Shown here piece by piece: positions 54,102 through 61,384 of a DNA stretch of 64,000 nt. Position numbers and translations under genes: made by a program. Position 1 is the first letter of the stretch. Each line of letters opens with the position of its first letter. This DNA comes from Pedobacter sp. SYSU D00535 (GTDB lineage: Bacteria > Bacteroidota > Bacteroidia > Sphingobacteriales > Sphingobacteriaceae). The notes under the pieces are model-generated. The model did not search any database and had not been told where the DNA came from. It saw only the letters and a program-made list of their open reading frames with translations. Location of the stretch: assembly GCF_017355855.1 (NCBI RefSeq), contig NZ_JAFEWD010000002.1, positions 310,001-374,000 on the forward strand. The letters are read 5' to 3'.

Positions 54102-54902
54102 TTAAAGTCTTACTTCAATGTTGTGGGTTCTCAGGTCCTCTTTTAATGCAGGAATAAGAATCTCACCGTAATGGAAAACAGAGGCAGCAAGAGCTGCATC
54201 TACGTTAGTTTGATGAAATACATCAATAAAATGTTGCACGTTGCCAGCGCCACCCGAAGCAATAAGGGGAATTGATATCTGGTCATTAATCTTGCGAAGC
54301 AAGCGATTGTCGAAACCTCCCTTGGTGCCGTCATGATCCATCGAGGTCAACAAAATTTCTCCTGCACCTCGATCTTCAGCTTCCTTAATCCATGATTCGG
54401 TCTCGAATTCCGTAGCTATCCGTCCGCCATTTAGGTGTACCAGATTTTTATCGCCTACCGCCTTTGTATCCACTGCAACTACTACAAATTGCTTTCCAAA
54501 AGCCATCGCGAGGTCATTGATAAGTTGTGGGTTTCTCACTGCGGCAGAATTGATAGAAATTTTATCTGCACCTGAATTGAGAAGTATATCAGCATCAGCT
54601 ATTTCGTTGATGCCACCACCAATGGTAAAGGGAATATTTACATTCCTCGCTACAGCCTTTACCAGTTCTACCATAGTCTTCCGGCGCTCGTGGGTAGCTG
54701 TAATGTCCAAAAATACTAGCTCGTCGGCTCCCTGTTGGGAATATTGCCAGGCCAGCTCCACCGGGTCACCAGCATCCCGGAGGTCGACAAAATTTACTCC
54801 TTTAACAGTGCGACCGTCTTTAACATCAAGGCACGGGATAATGCGTTTTGCGAGTCCCGTGCCTTGATGATTTTTAGAATCGTAAGTATTTGAATTGCTC
54901 AA
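54102..54902 (-). CDS. hisF: Imidazole glycerol phosphate synthase, cyclase subunit
   Basis: A 266-residue beta/alpha barrel that, with HisH, turns PRFAR plus ammonia into IGP and AICAR. Motifs: [25 protein letters not shown] near the start (catalytic Asp), [36 protein letters not shown] (second catalytic Asp region) and [17 protein letters not shown] phosphate loops. The only start codon upstream of LAKRIIP is a TTG, 5 bp after hisA, which gives a 16-residue N-terminal extension ([16 protein letters not shown]) not present in typical HisF. No ATG or GTG codon in frame lies nearer. Confidence 0.95.
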
Positions 54903-54907
54903 ACGGC

Positions 54908-55657
54908 CTAAAATGAAATTAGCGATTTTAAGTTCCAGTCTTTGATTTCTTCGATGGTGATGCGGCCTTCATAAATTGCTTTGCCTACCACACACGCTTC
55001 CACTTTAATTTCCTGTAAAGCGCGGATGTCCTCCATCGAACTCACTCCACCAGATGCAATTAATTTGATGAAAGGAGAGTGGTCAAGCAATTTTTGATAC
55101 AGCTCAACTCCTGCACCGCCTAGTTTACCATCTTTGTTGATGTCTGTGCAAAGGAAGCGGAAGAATCCTAAGTTAAGGCAACGGTCAACGTAATCCATCA
55201 GCTTAATAGGAGAGCTTTCCATCCAGCCGGAGTATTTGATCACCTCATCAAGAACATCGATAGCCACCACAATTTGATCTGATAATTTCTCTTTGCCGCA
55301 AAGCTGTTCGCTCAACTCAGGTAGAAAATCAGGGTTAGTAACCGCTTGTGTTCCTACGATCACGCGGTGAATACCAGCGTCTAAAAGTTCTTTTACCTTT
55401 TCAATACTTCTGATACCGCCACCGTATTGAACCTTCATTTCCGTTTTCCGGATGATATCAAACAGGTAACCCTGGTTGCTGAAGTCACCTTTAGCACCGT
55501 TCAGGTCGATGATATGAACGTATTCTGTACCGTTCGACTGATACTTCTCTATCATCTCCTCCAGTGTTACATCGTAAAATGTAACCTGATCGTAGTCGCC
55601 TTCACGTAAGCGCACTACCTTTTTGTCCAGAATATCAATTGCAGGGATTATGTACAT
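54908..55657 (-). CDS. hisA: Phosphoribosylformimino-5-aminoimidazole carboxamide ribotide isomerase
   Basis: A 249-residue beta/alpha barrel isomerase of histidine synthesis. The start [26 protein letters not shown] has the catalytic Asp (AIDI); [29 protein letters not shown] and [23 protein letters not shown] give the second Asp (TDINKDG) and phosphate-binding loops; [16 protein letters not shown] is the last. Length normal. It lies 6 bp after hisH and 5 bp before hisF. The enzyme is encoded as a separate protein and shows no PriA-type fusion. Confidence 0.97.
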
Positions 55658-55663
55658 ATCTTT

Positions 55664-56305
55664 CTATAGTTCTGAAAAGTTTTTTAAAATTTTCTCGCCA
55701 GCTTCCCCTGACTTCTCGGGATGAAACTGAACTCCGTAAAAATTATTTTTTTGCAGCGCAGCCGAGAACTTAATGCCGTAATCGGTGGATGCGATTGTAA
55801 AAGTAGGATTAAATTCTATAAAATAGGAATGAACGTAGTAAAAGTAAGTTCCTGGTTTTATGTCTTTAAATAATTCATTATCAGGCACTGCGTTAACTTT
55901 GTTCCAACCAGTATGAGGTATTTTTAGTTTTAAATTTTCGGAAAAATGACAAGTTTTGACAGAAGCAATACCAAGCAGTTCAGCGTTGCCTTCTTCAGAA
56001 AATTCGGTCATTAATTGCATGCCTACGCAAATGCCTAAAACGGGCTTCGACGTTCCTTTAATCTTGGGAACCATCCCGCTCTCTGCCAGTTTTTGCATGG
56101 CAGCGCCTGCATGACCTACACCGGGAATAATATAACGCTCATATTTGTCGAACTCTTCCGGAGAATTGATCATCTCATAAGCGATGCCCTGTCTGTCGAG
56201 AGCTGCAGTGAGAGAGAAAATGTTGCCGGCTCCGTAGTTTACTATTCCCAGAAGTTTGGGAGTGGTTGAAGCAGAACCGGTATCGATACTCTTATTTTCT
56301 ACCAT
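55664..56305 (-). CDS. hisH: Imidazole glycerol phosphate synthase, glutamine amidotransferase subunit
   Basis: A 213-residue class I amidotransferase supplying ammonia to HisF. The catalytic triad is visible: Cys in VLGICVGMQLMTEFSEEG (near residue 93), and His and Glu in GVQFHPEKSGEAG near the C-terminus. The N-terminus has about 15 extra residues (MVENKSIDTGSASTTPK) before LLGIVNYGAGNIFSLTAALD, slightly more than usual. It lies 6 bp upstream of hisA and 76 bp downstream of hisB in the same operon, a wider gap than elsewhere in it. Confidence 0.96.
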   Translation of the reverse strand: MVENKSIDTGSASTTPKLLGIVNYGAGNIFSLTAALDRQGIAYEMINSPEEFDKYERYIIPGVGHAGAAMQKLAESGMVPKIKGTSKPVLGICVGMQLMTEFSEEGNAELLGIASVKTCHFSENLKLKIPHTGWNKVNAVPDNELFKDIKPGTYFYYVHSYFIEFNPTFTIASTDYGIKFSAALQKNNFYGVQFHPEKSGEAGEKILKNFSEL

Positions 56306-56381
56306 AATTTGGGCTACAAATATACCGATAATCTCCGGTGAATAGGAAAAGGTATTTCCCTTGTCACAGGTCCTGCAATTT

Positions 56382-57569
56382 TTACAGCAGTCCTTTTGTG
56401 CTGGGAAGCTGCATATTGTTCACGTCCCGCTTCGCTGCCATTTTTATTGCTTTAGCAAAAGCTTTGAAAATGGCCTCTATTTTATGATGCTCATTTTGAC
56501 CTTCGGCCTTAATATTCAAATTGCTTCGGGACGCATCTGAGAATGATTTGAAGAAATGGAAGAACATCTCGGTCGGCATTTCTCCCACCTTTTCGCGTTT
56601 AAATTCCGCGTCCCAAACAATCCAGTTTCTCCCTCCAAAATCAATTGCTACCTGTGCCAGGCAATCGTCCATGGGCAGGCAAAAGCCGTAGCGCTCGATA
56701 CCTCTTTTGTCGCCAAGTGCTTTCGCGATGGCTTCACCTAAGGCAATTCCTGTATCTTCAATGGTATGATGTTCATCAATATGAAGGTCGCCTTTAGCAG
56801 TTATCTCCAGGTCGATGCTGCCATGACGTGCTATCTGATCCAGCATGTGATCAAAGAAATGAAGACCTGTACTTATTTTAGCTTCACCTTTTCCATCCAG
56901 GTTCAGCTTGATGAAAATGTCGGTTTCTTTGGTAGTGCGCACGTGTTCCACCTCCCGTTTTCCCACTTTCAGAAACTCATAAACATCCTTCCAGCTTGTG
57001 GTGTCAACGGCAATAACCTCGGCAAGGGTAGCATCTTTGTCTGTAATTTCCGCTAAGCCCAAGGTAGCATCCTGTTTCAGCCAAATCGCTTTGCAATCCA
57101 AGTTTTTTGCAAGAGCCACATCGGTAATCCGATCGCCGATTACAAATGAGTGCTCTAAGTCAAATCGGTCTTTATCAAAAAAGTGAGTAAGTAAACCAGT
57201 GCCCGGCTTGCGGGTTGGAGCATTTTCATGAGGGAAAGTCTTGTCGATCAGTACTTCCTTAAAAAAAACTCCTTCGGCTTCAAAAGCATCAATGATGAAG
57301 TTATGCACCGGCCAAAAGTTTTCCTCCGGATGGGAGCTGGTACCGAGTCCGTCTTGATTTGTCACCATCACCAGGTCAAAGTCAAGTTCCTCGGCGATCT
57401 TCGTAAGGTACTTGAAGGCTTGTGGATAGAACTTCAGCTTGGCGAATGAATCCACCTGGTAATCTTCGGGCTCCAGGCAAAGTGTACCATCTCTATCGAT
57501 GAATAAAACTTTACGTGGCTGTGCTTTTACAGTCTCATTTGCCTCAGTTGTTGGGTTATCCAGACTCAT
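56382..57569 (-). CDS. hisB: Bifunctional histidinol-phosphatase/imidazoleglycerol-phosphate dehydratase
   Basis: A 395-residue fusion. The N-terminal HAD domain (about 1-175) has [19 protein letters not shown] (nucleophile Asp and acid Asp), VTNQDGLG and [13 protein letters not shown]. The C-terminal dehydratase (about 205-395) contains [38 protein letters not shown] and [39 protein letters not shown], with the two manganese-binding HEHHT-type clusters. It performs the sixth and eighth steps of histidine synthesis. It starts 1 bp after the hisC stop codon. The N-terminal extension ([19 protein letters not shown]) is a little longer than in enteric HisB. Confidence 0.97.
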
Positions 57570-57570
57570 G

Positions 57571-58623
57571 TTATGATTGAAAAGATTTGAGCGTATTGAC
57601 TAAAATTTCGTTTTCAGAAGGAGTGCCTACTGTGATTCTCAAGCTGCCTTCGCACAGCTCCACCTTGGTGCGGTTTCTCACAATAATCCCCCGCTCCACC
57701 AAAAAGTTATAAATGCCATTTGCATCAGTAGTTTTAACCAGAATGAAGTTGGCATCAGAGGGGTAGATTTTTAACACGAAAGGCAGCGAGTGAAGATTAC
57801 CAACCAGCTTCTCCCGTTCTCTGATTGTTTCCTTAATCCAGTCGTTAACCTGGTCAATATTTTTCAAAGCTTCCAAGGCTAATTCCTGGGAGGCCTGATT
57901 GATGTTGTACGGCGGTTTTACTTTATTGAAAACTTCGATGATCTCTTCACTTGCGAAGGCCATCCCCACACGCAAGGCTGCCAGTCCCCATGCTTTTGAC
58001 AGCGTTTGCAGGATGACGAGATTGCTGTATTCAGTGAGTTCCTGGATAAACGTCTTTTGACGTGAGTAATTGATATATGCTTCGTCGATCACTACTAATC
58101 CAGGGAAGTTTGCCAGCACTGTTTCCACATCTTCTCGGTTGATTGAATTTCCTGTTGGATTATTGGGCGAGCAAATAAAGATCATCCGGGTATTCGCATC
58201 AATTGCTTCTGCGATGCCTTCCAGGTTCAACTGGTAGTCAGGAGTCAGCGGTACTTTTTTGATCGCTACATCATTAATGTTGGCAGATACTTCGTACATG
58301 CCGTAAGTAGGAGGAACGGTGATTACATTGTCGACACCCGGGCGGCAAAATGCTCTGAAGAGGATGTCGATCGCTTCGTCACTACCATTTCCCAAAAAAA
58401 TGTTTTGAGGTGGAACTCCTTTAATCTCACTTAAACGTTTTTTAACCTCCCACTGTAAGGGATCCGGATAACGGTTATAAGCGGTTTCGAGCGGGGAGCC
58501 GTAGCTGTTCTCGTTAGCATCTAGAAATACGGACGCTTCTCCTTTAAATTCATCACGGGCGGATGAGTAAGGAACTAAGTTTTTTATGTTGTCTCTTAAA
58601 ATAGAGTTAATATCAAAATTCAT
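57571..58623 (-). CDS. hisC: Histidinol-phosphate aminotransferase
   Basis: A 350-residue class I/II PLP aminotransferase. It has NENSYGSP near the N-terminus, [21 protein letters not shown] near residue 78, [13 protein letters not shown] near 150, [13 protein letters not shown] near 177, and the PLP lysine in [19 protein letters not shown] (Lys near residue 210). Length is typical for HisC. Acts at step seven, converting imidazole acetol phosphate to histidinol phosphate using glutamate. It lies 37 bp after hisD and abuts hisB, in the standard operon order. Confidence 0.97.
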
Positions 58624-58660
58624 CGTTTTAGCATTAAAATGGACATTGCTTCAAATCTCC

Positions 58661-59959
58661 TTACTTTCCGGCCAAAGACTTCCGTACTGTCACGGCGTTC
58701 TTGTGCGCCTGCAATCCTTCCAGTTCGGCGAGAACTTCCACCGTTGTGCCCAGATTGTTTATCCCCTGAGCTGTCAGATGCTGGAAAGTGATCTTTTTTA
58801 CAAAGGAATCCACAGAAACACCTGAATAGGATTTCGCGTAAGCGCTGGTTGGAAGGGTATGATTGGTGCCCGAAGCGTAATCACCGGCACTTTCAGGAGT
58901 AAGATTTCCCAGAAATACCGAGCCTGCGTTGCTGATCAAGCCGGTAATCTTCTGCCAGCTTTCTGTCGCGAGGATCAGGTGCTCAGGGGCGTACTCGTTG
59001 CTAAATGCCATCGCCTCTTCCAGGTCAGCAGCCACCACAGCATAAGAATTATCAATGGCTTGTGCAGCAATCTCCTTTCTTGGAAGTACGGCCAGTTGCT
59101 TTTCGAGTTCGGCGATTGTTTTTGCAATGATTTCCTCGGAAGTTGCCACTAATACCGCCTGTGAATCCACCCCATGTTCTGCCTGAGCTAGCAAATCAGC
59201 AGCGACAAAAACGGGATTTGAAGTCTCGTCCGCGATCACCAGCACCTCTGACGGTCCTGCCGGCATGTCAATAGCAGTAGGGGTAGTCGACTGAACAATC
59301 GTTTTTGCCTTGGTCACGTATTGATTTCCCGGTCCGAAGATTTTGTCCACTTTCGGCATACTTTCCGTTCCATAAGCCATTGCTGCTACAGCTTGCGCTC
59401 CTCCAACTAAATAAACGCGGTCTATCTGCAGCAGCTTTGCTACGTAGGCGATATAGCAGTTAATTGATCCGTCTTTCTGAGGAGGTGAACACACAACTAT
59501 TTCTTTACATCCGGCAATCTTAGCAGGAACACCCAGCATTAAAAACGTGCTGGGAAGGACAGCTGTTCCCCCCGGAATATAAAGTCCCACTTTTTCAATG
59601 GGCCGAAATTCACGCCAACAGGTAACGCCCGGCATGGTTTCTACCTGGGCTTCCTTTTTTAGCTGCGACTGATGGAATTTATGAATATTGTTGTAGGCAG
59701 TGTCAATCGCCAAACGTTGCTCGTCGCCGATCTGTGCTGCTATCGTAGCTATTTCTGCCTGATTGAGGTAAAGTTTAGACAGGCTCACTTTATCAAAGGT
59801 CTCCGCAAAGCGGATCAGTGCCTGATCACCTTCGGCCTTCACAGCCGCAATAATTGACTCCACCCGTTCGCCGATTGTATTGTTCTCATCGGCATTACGT
59901 GAAACCAGTTGCTGTGTTGCTTCCCGATTTAATTCCCTGTATTGATAGATCTTAAGCAT
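58661..59959 (-). CDS. hisD: Histidinol dehydrogenase
   Basis: A 432-residue NAD- and zinc-dependent enzyme for the last two oxidations to L-histidine. Diagnostic segments: GLYIPGGTAVLPSTFLMLGVPAKIAGC near residue 120, IFGPGNQYVTKAKTIVQS near 208, DMPAGPSEVLVIADE near 231, LLAQAEHGVDSQAVLV near 255 (Gln and His zinc ligands), and GDYASGTNHTLPTSAYAKSYSGVSVDSFVKK near 360. Length is typical. It is the second gene of the operon, 68 bp downstream of hisG, and 37 bp before hisC. Cytoplasmic homodimer in known examples. Confidence 0.98.
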   Translation of the reverse strand: MLKIYQYRELNREATQQLVSRNADENNTIGERVESIIAAVKAEGDQALIRFAETFDKVSLSKLYLNQAEIATIAAQIGDEQRLAIDTAYNNIHKFHQSQLKKEAQVETMPGVTCWREFRPIEKVGLYIPGGTAVLPSTFLMLGVPAKIAGCKEIVVCSPPQKDGSINCYIAYVAKLLQIDRVYLVGGAQAVAAMAYGTESMPKVDKIFGPGNQYVTKAKTIVQSTTPTAIDMPAGPSEVLVIADETSNPVFVAADLLAQAEHGVDSQAVLVATSEEIIAKTIAELEKQLAVLPRKEIAAQAIDNSYAVVAADLEEAMAFSNEYAPEHLILATESWQKITGLISNAGSVFLGNLTPESAGDYASGTNHTLPTSAYAKSYSGVSVDSFVKKITFQHLTAQGINNLGTTVEVLAELEGLQAHKNAVTVRKSLAGK

Positions 59960-60027: not shown

Positions 60028-60879
60028 TTAAAGAATTATCTTTTCAATTGGCATCACCACAATTCCCTGAGCGCCGGCAGCTTTTAGCTGATTAATGCGG
60101 CTCCAGAAATCTTTTTCAGGAATAACTGTATGAATGGCAACCCAACCTTCTTCTGCCAAAGGAACTACAGTAGGGCTTTTGATCCCGGGTAGTAAAGTTT
60201 TGATCTCATCGACGTTCTTCCGTTCGGCATTCAGTACCACGTACTTCGTTTCCTTTGCGCGCAGAACGGATTGGATACGTTGAATAAGCTCCTGAATGAG
60301 CGGATCTTCCTCTTCTCCTTTGCGTCCGATAAGAACAGCTTCAGAGGATAGTACATCGCCGAAAGGCTTTAAGCCGTTGCTTTTTAAGGTGCCTCCCGTT
60401 GAAACGATGTCGCAAATGGCGTCCGCCAGACCTAAGCCCGGAGAAATTTCTACAGAACCCGAAATAGTTCTTATTTCGGCTTCCACGTTATTGTCCTTAA
60501 GAAACTTGCCGAGGATAACCGGGTAAGAGGTTGCAATCGCTTTTCCGTTAAGATCCGCAAGAGCTTGAATATCGCCTTTATTAGGGATAGCAAGTTTTAA
60601 AGTGCATTTTCCAAAGCCTAAGCGTTGGAGGTAGGCTACTTCAACTTCTGTTTCGCAAATTACGTTTTCACCTACAATTCCCAGATCAGCAATGCCATCC
60701 TGAACGTATTCAGGAATATCATCGTCGCGAAGAAAAAGAATCTCTAAGGGGAAATTGGATACCGGAGATATCAAAGAGCTTTTATAATTTTCGAAGCTTA
60801 AACCACAATTTTTAAGAAGCTCTACGGATTTTTCATTTAACCTACCCGACTTCTGGATAGCTATTTTGAGTGTTTTCAA
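60028..60879 (-). CDS. hisG: ATP phosphoribosyltransferase (long form)
   Basis: A 283-residue enzyme for the first committed step of histidine synthesis. The catalytic domain opens KTLKIAIQKSGRLNEKSVELLKNCGL and has YVQDGIADLGIVGENV near residue 57 and the P-loop-like DIVSTGGTLKSNGLK near 165. The C-terminal ACT-like regulatory domain (about 210-283, GWVAIHTVIPEKDFWSRINQLKAAGAQGIVVMPIEKI) identifies the long form, which binds histidine as feedback inhibitor and needs no HisZ. Start is TTG; no upstream in-frame ATG exists. A His-rich leader reading frame precedes it by 67 bp. Confidence 0.97.
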   Translation of the reverse strand: MKTLKIAIQKSGRLNEKSVELLKNCGLSFENYKSSLISPVSNFPLEILFLRDDDIPEYVQDGIADLGIVGENVICETEVEVAYLQRLGFGKCTLKLAIPNKGDIQALADLNGKAIATSYPVILGKFLKDNNVEAEIRTISGSVEISPGLGLADAICDIVSTGGTLKSNGLKPFGDVLSSEAVLIGRKGEEEDPLIQELIQRIQSVLRAKETKYVVLNAERKNVDEIKTLLPGIKSPTVVPLAEEGWVAIHTVIPEKDFWSRINQLKAAGAQGIVVMPIEKIIL

Positions 60880-60912
60880 TGTTTAAATTTTAGTAATCAG
60901 ACCAATAAAAAT

Positions 60913-60923
60913 ATTCGGGGAAT
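60913..60923 (-). other. Weak terminator-like hairpin in the his leader
   Basis: Reading the minus strand, ATTC pairs with GAAT around CCC, followed by ATATTTTTATT. It is a possible attenuation point just before hisG. It is short; the GTTTC-TACGT-GAAAC hairpin 5' of it (60926-60940) is a likelier partner in any switch. Confidence 0.3.
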
Positions 60924-60925
60924 CA

Positions 60926-60940
60926 GTTTCACGTAGAAAC
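60926..60940 (-). other. Hairpin with alternative pairing in the his leader
   Basis: On the minus strand GTTTC and GAAAC form a 5-bp stem with a TACGT loop. Its 3' arm extended, GTGAAA, can also pair with TTTCAC at codons 5-6 of the leader peptide (60990-60995), so two mutually exclusive folds exist. No folding calculation was run. Confidence 0.35.
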
Positions 60941-60946
60941 ATACAT

Positions 60947-61006
60947 TTATCTATCGCCGCAATGGCGATGATGAGCATGCATGTGATGTGTGAAAACTAA
61001 TATCAT
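60947..61006 (-). CDS. Candidate his operon leader peptide
   Basis: A 19-codon frame with ATG and TAA encoding MILVFTHHMHAHHRHCGDR, with six histidines in a stretch of nine residues. It starts about 30 bp after a TATATTTG promoter box and stops 67 bp before hisG, which opens a complete histidine operon. The pattern is that of amino-acid leader peptides, where ribosome stalling at His codons reports low charged histidyl-tRNA. A hairpin (ATCGCC / GGCGAT, 60953-60969) overlaps its last His codon and stop. Leader peptide function is inferred from composition and place; the enteric hisL has no sequence likeness beyond the histidines. It is too short for usual gene finders. Confidence 0.75.
   Translation of the reverse strand: MILVFTHHMHAHHRHCGDR
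60953..60969 (-). other. Hairpin at the end of the his leader peptide frame
   Basis: ATCGCC and GGCGAT form a perfect 6-bp GC-rich stem with a 5-base loop overlapping the last codons and near the stop codon of the leader frame. It can form only when no ribosome sits there, so it may act as the pause or the switching hairpin. Confidence 0.45.
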
Positions 61007-61035
61007 TTGTTGGTTCCTGATTAAATCGGGAGTCG

Positions 61036-61043
61036 CAAATATA
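61036..61043 (-). promoter_or_regulatory. his operon promoter, -7 box
   Basis: TATATTTG on the minus strand is a full match to TAnnTTTG. It would start transcription about 20-25 bp before the leader peptide ATG. The -33 box is not clear, though the upstream region is rich in A and T. Confidence 0.6.
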
Positions 61044-61168
61044 CGTATCCCACCTAAAAATTAAAATTTTATATCCTTTTATACGCTCCGGGTTTCGTTT
61101 TAGAGAACGCGAACAAATTTTTTCTGCTTTGCTGCAGCAATTTTATTTTTGCAATCCCAACTATCGCA

Positions 61169-61384
61169 ATGCCGGAAGTAGTTTTAGTTATTTTTATTAT
61201 CGCACTGATTTGTTCTCCACAAATTCTTGCTGGTTTACTTGCAAGAAGCATGGGACGTAGCTTCTGGTTTTGGTTCTGGATCTCTTTCCTGATCCCTATT
61301 ATTTCGTTAGTGATTCTTCTGTGCAAGAAGGATGACCGGCCTGGCCAAAGTTATAAGCTGGCCGATCACGTAAAAGGGGAGTAG
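61169..61384 (+). CDS. Small two-helix membrane protein
   Basis: A 71-residue protein with two predicted membrane helices, PEVVLVIFIIALICSPQILAGLLA (about 2-25) and SFWFWFWISFLIPIISLVILL (about 31-51), then a soluble basic-acidic tail (CKKDDRPGQSYKLADHVKGE). The Phe/Trp alternation FWFWFWISFLIPIISL is common in small inner-membrane proteins of Bacteroidota. Family unknown to me. It starts with an ATG and is divergent from the his operon, convergent with the HAD phosphatase gene (11 bp between ends). Confidence 0.6.
   Translation: MPEVVLVIFIIALICSPQILAGLLARSMGRSFWFWFWISFLIPIISLVILLCKKDDRPGQSYKLADHVKGE

Follow-up and report, generated by a model that had tools for sequence, protein, structure and literature searches.

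Histidine operons of enteric bacteria are controlled by hisL, a short leader open reading frame (ORF) that is rich in His codons and lies before hisG. It is a transcription attenuator, in which the position of the ribosome selects between alternative RNA pairings. In the anti-TRAP system of Bacillus subtilis, leader-peptide codons of one amino acid reportedly control translation initiation at the next gene (the work is that of Chen and Yanofsky in 2004). This system is said to use Shine-Dalgarno sequences, and to our knowledge it has no helix of the P1 type presented below. Work by Vitreschak in 2004 and Lopatovskaya in 2010 is said to touch on attenuators of the Bacteroidetes. Clues to leader-peptide attenuation before amino-acid operons have been presented for Flavobacterium psychrophilum, in a study whose main text does not mention histidine (PMC9723704), and leader-like short frames are among the content of a study of Bacteroides thetaiotaomicron (PMC7366714). 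The portions of the literature covered by our search (including PMC2864571, PMC6429828, PMC4833913 and PMC4027176) hold no account of the His leader of the family described here, and a mention in Vitreschak 2004 or Lopatovskaya 2010 is possible.

The window, that is, the whole stretch of 64,000 nucleotides analysed here, carries a his operon on the minus strand with a His-rich short frame before it. The frame comprises 19 codons, from an ATG at 61006 to a TAA ending at 60947, and its stop is followed after 67 nt by the TTG start of hisG at 60879. Each of these elements, as well as the TATATTTG box upstream, is present as claimed in the initial annotation, which had been made from the letters of the window. 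The features are listed below in transcript order with the evidence for each; the helices are predicted RNA pairings.

61036 to 61043, minus strand: TATATTTG, the putative TAnnTTTG -7 box of the leader promoter (sequence)
61010 to 61023, minus strand: predicted 5' arm of helix P1, UAAUCAGGAACCAA, directly 5' of the leader ATG (partner-swap tests, predicted window fold)
60947 to 61006, minus strand: his leader ORF, MILVFTHHMHAHHRHCGDR plus stop (direct reading of the sequence, His-frame count)
60977 to 61001, minus strand: region 1, leader codons predicted to pair with region 2 as P2a and P2b (covariation counts, fold)
60949 to 60972, minus strand: predicted hairpin P3 within the leader ORF, AUCGCC with GGCGAU (alignment, covariation)
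60922 to 60946, minus strand: region 2, the strand common to P2 and P4 (fold, covariation)
60926 to 60940, minus strand: predicted hairpin P4, GUUUC-UACGU-GAAAC, the alternative to P2 (covariation in the alignment)
60894 to 60905, minus strand: predicted 3' arm of helix P1, UUGGUCUGAUUA, directly 5' of hisG (partner-swap tests, predicted window fold)
60028 to 60879, minus strand: hisG with a TTG start (TIGR00070 and TIGR03455)
54908 to 59959, minus strand: hisD, hisC, bifunctional hisB, hisH and hisA, the remaining his operon (NCBIfam models)

In the ORF listing of the window, hisD, hisC, hisB, hisH and hisA start with ATG, and the frame after hisA (54102-54902), which is hisF-like by eye, starts with TTG. 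Of 104 family loci, 101 have the TAnnTTTG motif, whose consensus is taken from PMC9723704, no more than 80 nt 5' of their leader. Rfam gave no match relevant to the leader in the whole window at the gathering score, and nothing relevant in 60800-61200 at E values up to 10, where no His leader model appeared.

We identified hisG in 182 of the 201 genomes of the family of the window (f1), which its named relatives suggest to be the family of Pedobacter and Mucilaginibacter. The family sample consisted of 110 hisG genomes, comprising 30 returned loci and 80 picked for genus spread among the matches listed. We defined a His leader as a short ATG frame with at least four His in 10 residues, located no more than 260 nt upstream of hisG. 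Such frames precede hisG in 104 of 110 family genomes as compared with 3 of 550 dinucleotide shuffles; with at least five His in 10 residues, the counts are 89 of 110 and 0 of 550. The runner-up amino acid in the same test was Leu (11/110). A second set of 80 family relatives, partly overlapping the 110, revealed a His frame in 76 and a Leu frame in 30, and at five or more residues His was found in 72/80 versus 1/80 for Leu. The leader frame is real and widespread. The inspection of hisG upstream regions in relatives that the initial annotation had proposed as a check thus bears out a conserved His-rich frame (in the 104 of 110), along with the covarying hairpins P3 and P4 discussed below.

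In other families, a His frame was found before hisG in 48 of 69 rows and in 0 of 345 shuffles. The 69 rows comprise 26, 20 and 23 loci; two of them are second copies of genomes in the set, so that the distinct outside genomes number 67, of which 46 have a His leader, and distant Bacteroidota are under-sampled among them because the most distant hisG matches were left out. The locus had been put forward as a possibly independent or poorly described example in the Bacteroidota. It is not isolated, given that 48 of the 69 outside rows share a leader, and the unusual feature is the absence of a terminator from the form found in the family.

Six family genomes have no His frame by our definition (L069, L074, L077, L081, L088 and L098). 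Four of these (L069, L077, L081 and L098) are small assemblies of 1.5-2.4 Mb, one of which is only 76% complete; perhaps control was lost in reduced genomes. Three loci of genus g5 (L093, L101 and L102) stand apart by their longer leaders, which contain 10-11 His (MITKQHIALHHHTHLHHGHHHHCA is one of them), and by a differing downstream arrangement with no clear P1.

We scanned the interval between leader and hisG for intrinsic terminators, defined as a hairpin at least as stable as -8 kcal/mol with a U tract behind it. A strong terminator was identified behind 41 of 46 His leaders outside the family, in a single scan that also serves as the positive control. Five outside leaders are without a strong one (L133, which has a weak terminator, L138, L237, L238 and L273), possibly through independent terminator losses. 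Within the family no his leader had a terminator at this threshold, either among the 104 loci (and an initial sample of 60) or among the 76 of the second set, and an intrinsic terminator behind the family his leader was rejected on these counts. As a control in the same family, a terminator was found at trpE in 11 of 11 loci scanned, the weaker matches L290 and L293 having been left out of the scan, and nine of these 11 trpE genes are preceded by a short frame in which 10 residues include two or more Trp; in the window's own genome this frame reads MLDSLHTKIWWWQATACAG. For ilvD, a terminator was found at three of 11 scanned family loci, each of which belongs to the genus of the window. Elsewhere in the window's genome, a WWW leader and a terminator precede trpE (L280, at C17), and an Ile/Val/Leu-rich leader and a terminator precede ilvD (L302, at C8).

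The terminator layout used by other families of the class, and by trpE in this family, would be in keeping with ordinary transcription attenuation at the family his leader as well, through an intrinsic terminator that our scan missed. We consider this highly unlikely, given that the same scan yields nothing in either family set at -8 kcal/mol, and only 2 of 104 loci qualify when the threshold is relaxed to -6 kcal/mol.

The start codon of hisG was compared between near loci, where the leader stop lies at most 95 nt from hisG (92 family loci), and far loci, where it lies further away (12). It is TTG in 63, GTG in 28 and ATG in one of the near loci (non-ATG in 91/92), and ATG in all 12 far loci. 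The second family set gave 37 TTG and 37 GTG starts at near loci and two ATG starts at far loci. In none of the 92 near loci does an in-frame ATG occur between hisG and the nearest upstream stop or within codons 2-19. Outside the family, an in-frame ATG lies close to the aligned hisG start in 60 of 67 genomes. The initial annotation had hinted at translational control, a suggestion that fits both the missing terminator and the TTG/GTG start of hisG.

The leader RNA of the window is predicted to fold more stably than its shuffles (z -3.5). We examined the pairings in an alignment of 53 diverse near family loci (A1), against shuffles that ignore kinship. For P3 and P4 together, standard pairs occupy 94.9% of cells versus 87.1% in these kinship-blind shuffles, and the covariation score is 0.306 versus 0.165. 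The values for P2a are 75.6% versus 67.7% and 0.206 versus 0.115, and those for P2b 63.8% versus 61.1% and 0.162 versus 0.111, kinship again being ignored; the P2 counts favour P2 somewhat, as the structure tested was named from the window's own fold. RNAalifold on the whole alignment recovered P3 and P4 only (8 pairs), and neither P1 nor P2.

A C-G pair of P4 is switched to G-C, with the pair kept, in 11 of the 53 aligned sequences. The leader base is G too in 10 of these 11, so that both the P2a and the P4 pairings survive; the switched sequences all come from genera g13 and g18, and thus may reflect one or two events. In genus g14 the leader base is A in six of seven sequences, which makes P2a weak there. 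P2a and P4 are mutually exclusive, as they share a strand and each covaries with it, and we infer that the position of the ribosome on the His codons would decide between P2 and P4. The hairpin at 60926-60940 and its competition with the leader TTTCAC, both named in the initial annotation, are present and both show covariation, and the conserved frame and the covarying shared strand lend strong comparative support to the broader claim of a His leader peptide whose RNA has alternative folds. The alignment backs two of the three small hairpins described there, the local P3 and P4, and not the third, and the long-range helix P1 had been overlooked.

No further copy of region 2 with up to three mismatches was found elsewhere in the genome, and a region-2 regulon was rejected because the his locus holds the single copy. 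Two other pairings were set aside: that of leader GUUUUCA with UGAAAAC at the hisG start, seen by eye in some loci and absent in others, and one that would join early codons of hisG to the 5' end of the leader RNA, which appears in the predicted fold of the window and is absent from those of L002 and L009. In several genera, P4 is followed by a short patch rich in C (CCCC or CCUCC), which lies at 60922-60908 in the window and could bear on Rho.

P1 pairs the leader ribosome-binding region with the RNA just before hisG. With one locus per genus from 18 genera, P1 formed from its own arms reaches -10.7 kcal/mol versus -7.1 kcal/mol for swapped arms, and none of 300 permutations equals the real pairing. 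Over all 92 near family loci, 0 of 2000 permutations were as good; outside the family there was no excess, with 913 of 2000 as good. At single loci P1 is often unremarkable. By duplex energy, 79 of the 92 near loci do better than their cross-genus mean and 41 rank in the top 5% of cross-genus partners; the corresponding numbers with an ungapped helix score are 81 and 28. When the P1 test was made over a wider interval, 75 of 104 loci surpassed the swapped mean, and the window's own locus showed no gain over swapped partners (-11.4 vs -11.8). The same pairing is formed by clade-specific sequences, such as UAAUCAGG/UCUGAUUA, UAAGCUAUAAU/AUUAUAGUUUA and AUUAUUAAAA/UUUUAAUAAU.

Three far loci (L085, L094 and L105) have P1 near the leader and the hisG start 56-76 nt downstream of P1; P1 must therefore have some role that does not depend on adjacency with hisG, or be a remnant there. 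These three loci, together with L088 and L090, have an extra stretch between P1 and hisG that contains look-alike pieces such as CATTGAAACC and AAGCTTCATTGCC, and hisG starts with ATG after it.

The retention of P1 at those three loci despite the displaced hisG, and the long paired rod in predicted folds, are points in favor of a mechanism acting on RNA stability. A double-strand nuclease would cut the P1-P2-P3 rod on a ribosome-free leader, and stalled ribosomes would protect the operon mRNA. However, this leaves the TTG/GTG start of hisG beside P1 unexplained, and we regard it as distinctly unlikely. Alternatively, the leader may have been an unregulated relic ever since the terminator was lost. 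The terminator is indeed gone in the family, but the His codons, the P1 complementarity, P4 and the choice of start codon have been kept across the genera examined, and a relic seems extremely improbable to us.

Rho-dependent attenuation would also suit his loci that have no intrinsic terminator. The C-rich, G-poor His codons would load Rho, which a stalled ribosome would block and a departed one would allow to terminate transcription before hisG or early within it. The window's genome encodes rho (TIGR00767 above the cut-off), His codons are C-rich by nature, and the patch after P4 adds C-rich sequence in several genera, but by eye it is missing in genera g18, g20 and g21. Moreover, Rho would leave both P1 and the non-ATG start of hisG unexplained. 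We consider this explanation unlikely.

For the translational reading, we calculated the energy required to open the region from -20 to +15 of hisG. The cost is 5.62 kcal/mol in free RNA. A ribosome on the first His codon brings it to 5.40, a queue of ribosomes headed by one on the last His codon to 4.20, and occupancy of the leader start to 3.52, although masking any upstream stretch tends to lower such costs. The stall at the first His codon by itself shifts the cost by only 0.23 kcal/mol, and opening becomes more than 0.5 kcal/mol cheaper in 22 of 92 near loci and dearer in 13 of 92. Occupancy of the leader start lowers the cost by 2.10 kcal/mol versus 0.33 with a shuffled 5'UTR, and the drop exceeds that in the locus's own shuffles in 66 of the 92. 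The start codon and the region from -18 to +12 are equally open in all tested states (0.643 free, 0.635 stalled), and opening -12 to +15 is no cheaper in any tested leader state. Plain hiding of the hisG start codon is thus unsupported. As occupancy lowers the cost for -20 to +15 and the start codon is always open, the effect would lie at the 5' border of the region in which hisG translation is initiated. Initiation in F. johnsoniae is described, in the relevant part of PMC6847099, as tuned by structure at about -20 to +20 around the start codon. Overall, the energy calculations back the translational model only partly.

Comparison of the sequences shows a conserved His-codon leader, a region 2 with a predicted choice between P2 and P4, the predicted helix P1 and a TTG/GTG start of hisG. 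They suggest attenuation as such at the family his leader, and we infer translation as its probable output. Most likely, the leader is a His-codon attenuator whose output has moved from transcription termination to hisG translation. When charged tRNA-His is ample, ribosomes would clear the leader and the RNA would close as a P1-P2-P3 rod, in which both the start of the leader and the sequence leading up to the weak hisG start would be hidden. Under a shortage of His-tRNA, ribosomes slowed by the His codons would cover region 1, with the result that P2 would be lost and P4 could form. The ribosomes behind them, held up at the leader start, would keep P1 from closing, and hisG would become accessible to 30S subunits. 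We rate the chance of a terminator-less, ribosome-sensing His attenuator that probably acts on hisG translation as slightly better than even. The evolutionary proposal seems to us evenly balanced: family f1 would have turned its His leader attenuator from transcription termination into a terminator-less switch, in which P1 pairs the leader ribosome-binding region with the approach to the weak non-ATG hisG start and hisG would be opened when ribosomes wait at the start of the leader, and the trp attenuators of these genomes would have stayed classical. In our ranking, control of translation comes first with close to half of the weight, Rho follows, and the three other readings (RNA stability, a terminator missed by the scan, a relic) stand lower.

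If this is true, a leader-peptide sensor has kept its input, the His codons, while its output module was swapped within one lineage. The system comes with built-in controls: relatives in the class have His leaders of the terminator type, and so does trp in the same genomes have control of this type. It would also provide an example, open to testing, of translation governed by an amino acid in bacteria whose mRNA is described in PMC6847099 as being without Shine-Dalgarno sequences. It also offers an annotation rule for a small frame that is easily missed.

Like enteric hisL, the family leader is short, His-rich, located before hisG and equipped with predicted alternative pairings. It differs in having no intrinsic terminator and no Rfam match, and in possessing helix P1 and a hisG start other than ATG. 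By eye, the enteric and family peptides have nothing in common beyond their richness in His. The terminator-type His leaders of other Bacteroidia (for example L127, L129 and L145) are likewise His-dense and lie 60-200 nt before hisG, but they differ in their terminators, in the ATG near the hisG start and in showing no excess of P1 pairing. The anti-TRAP leader of Bacillus subtilis is similar in that codons of one amino acid govern initiation at the following gene, and it differs in amino acid, phylum and geometry. The attenuation in F. psychrophilum concerns the same phylum and amino-acid operons, but is described, in the sections concerned, as control of transcription elongation (PMC9723704). 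Compared with these systems, a leader that has no terminator but is combined with P1 and a hisG start other than ATG would be a new form of leader-peptide attenuation.
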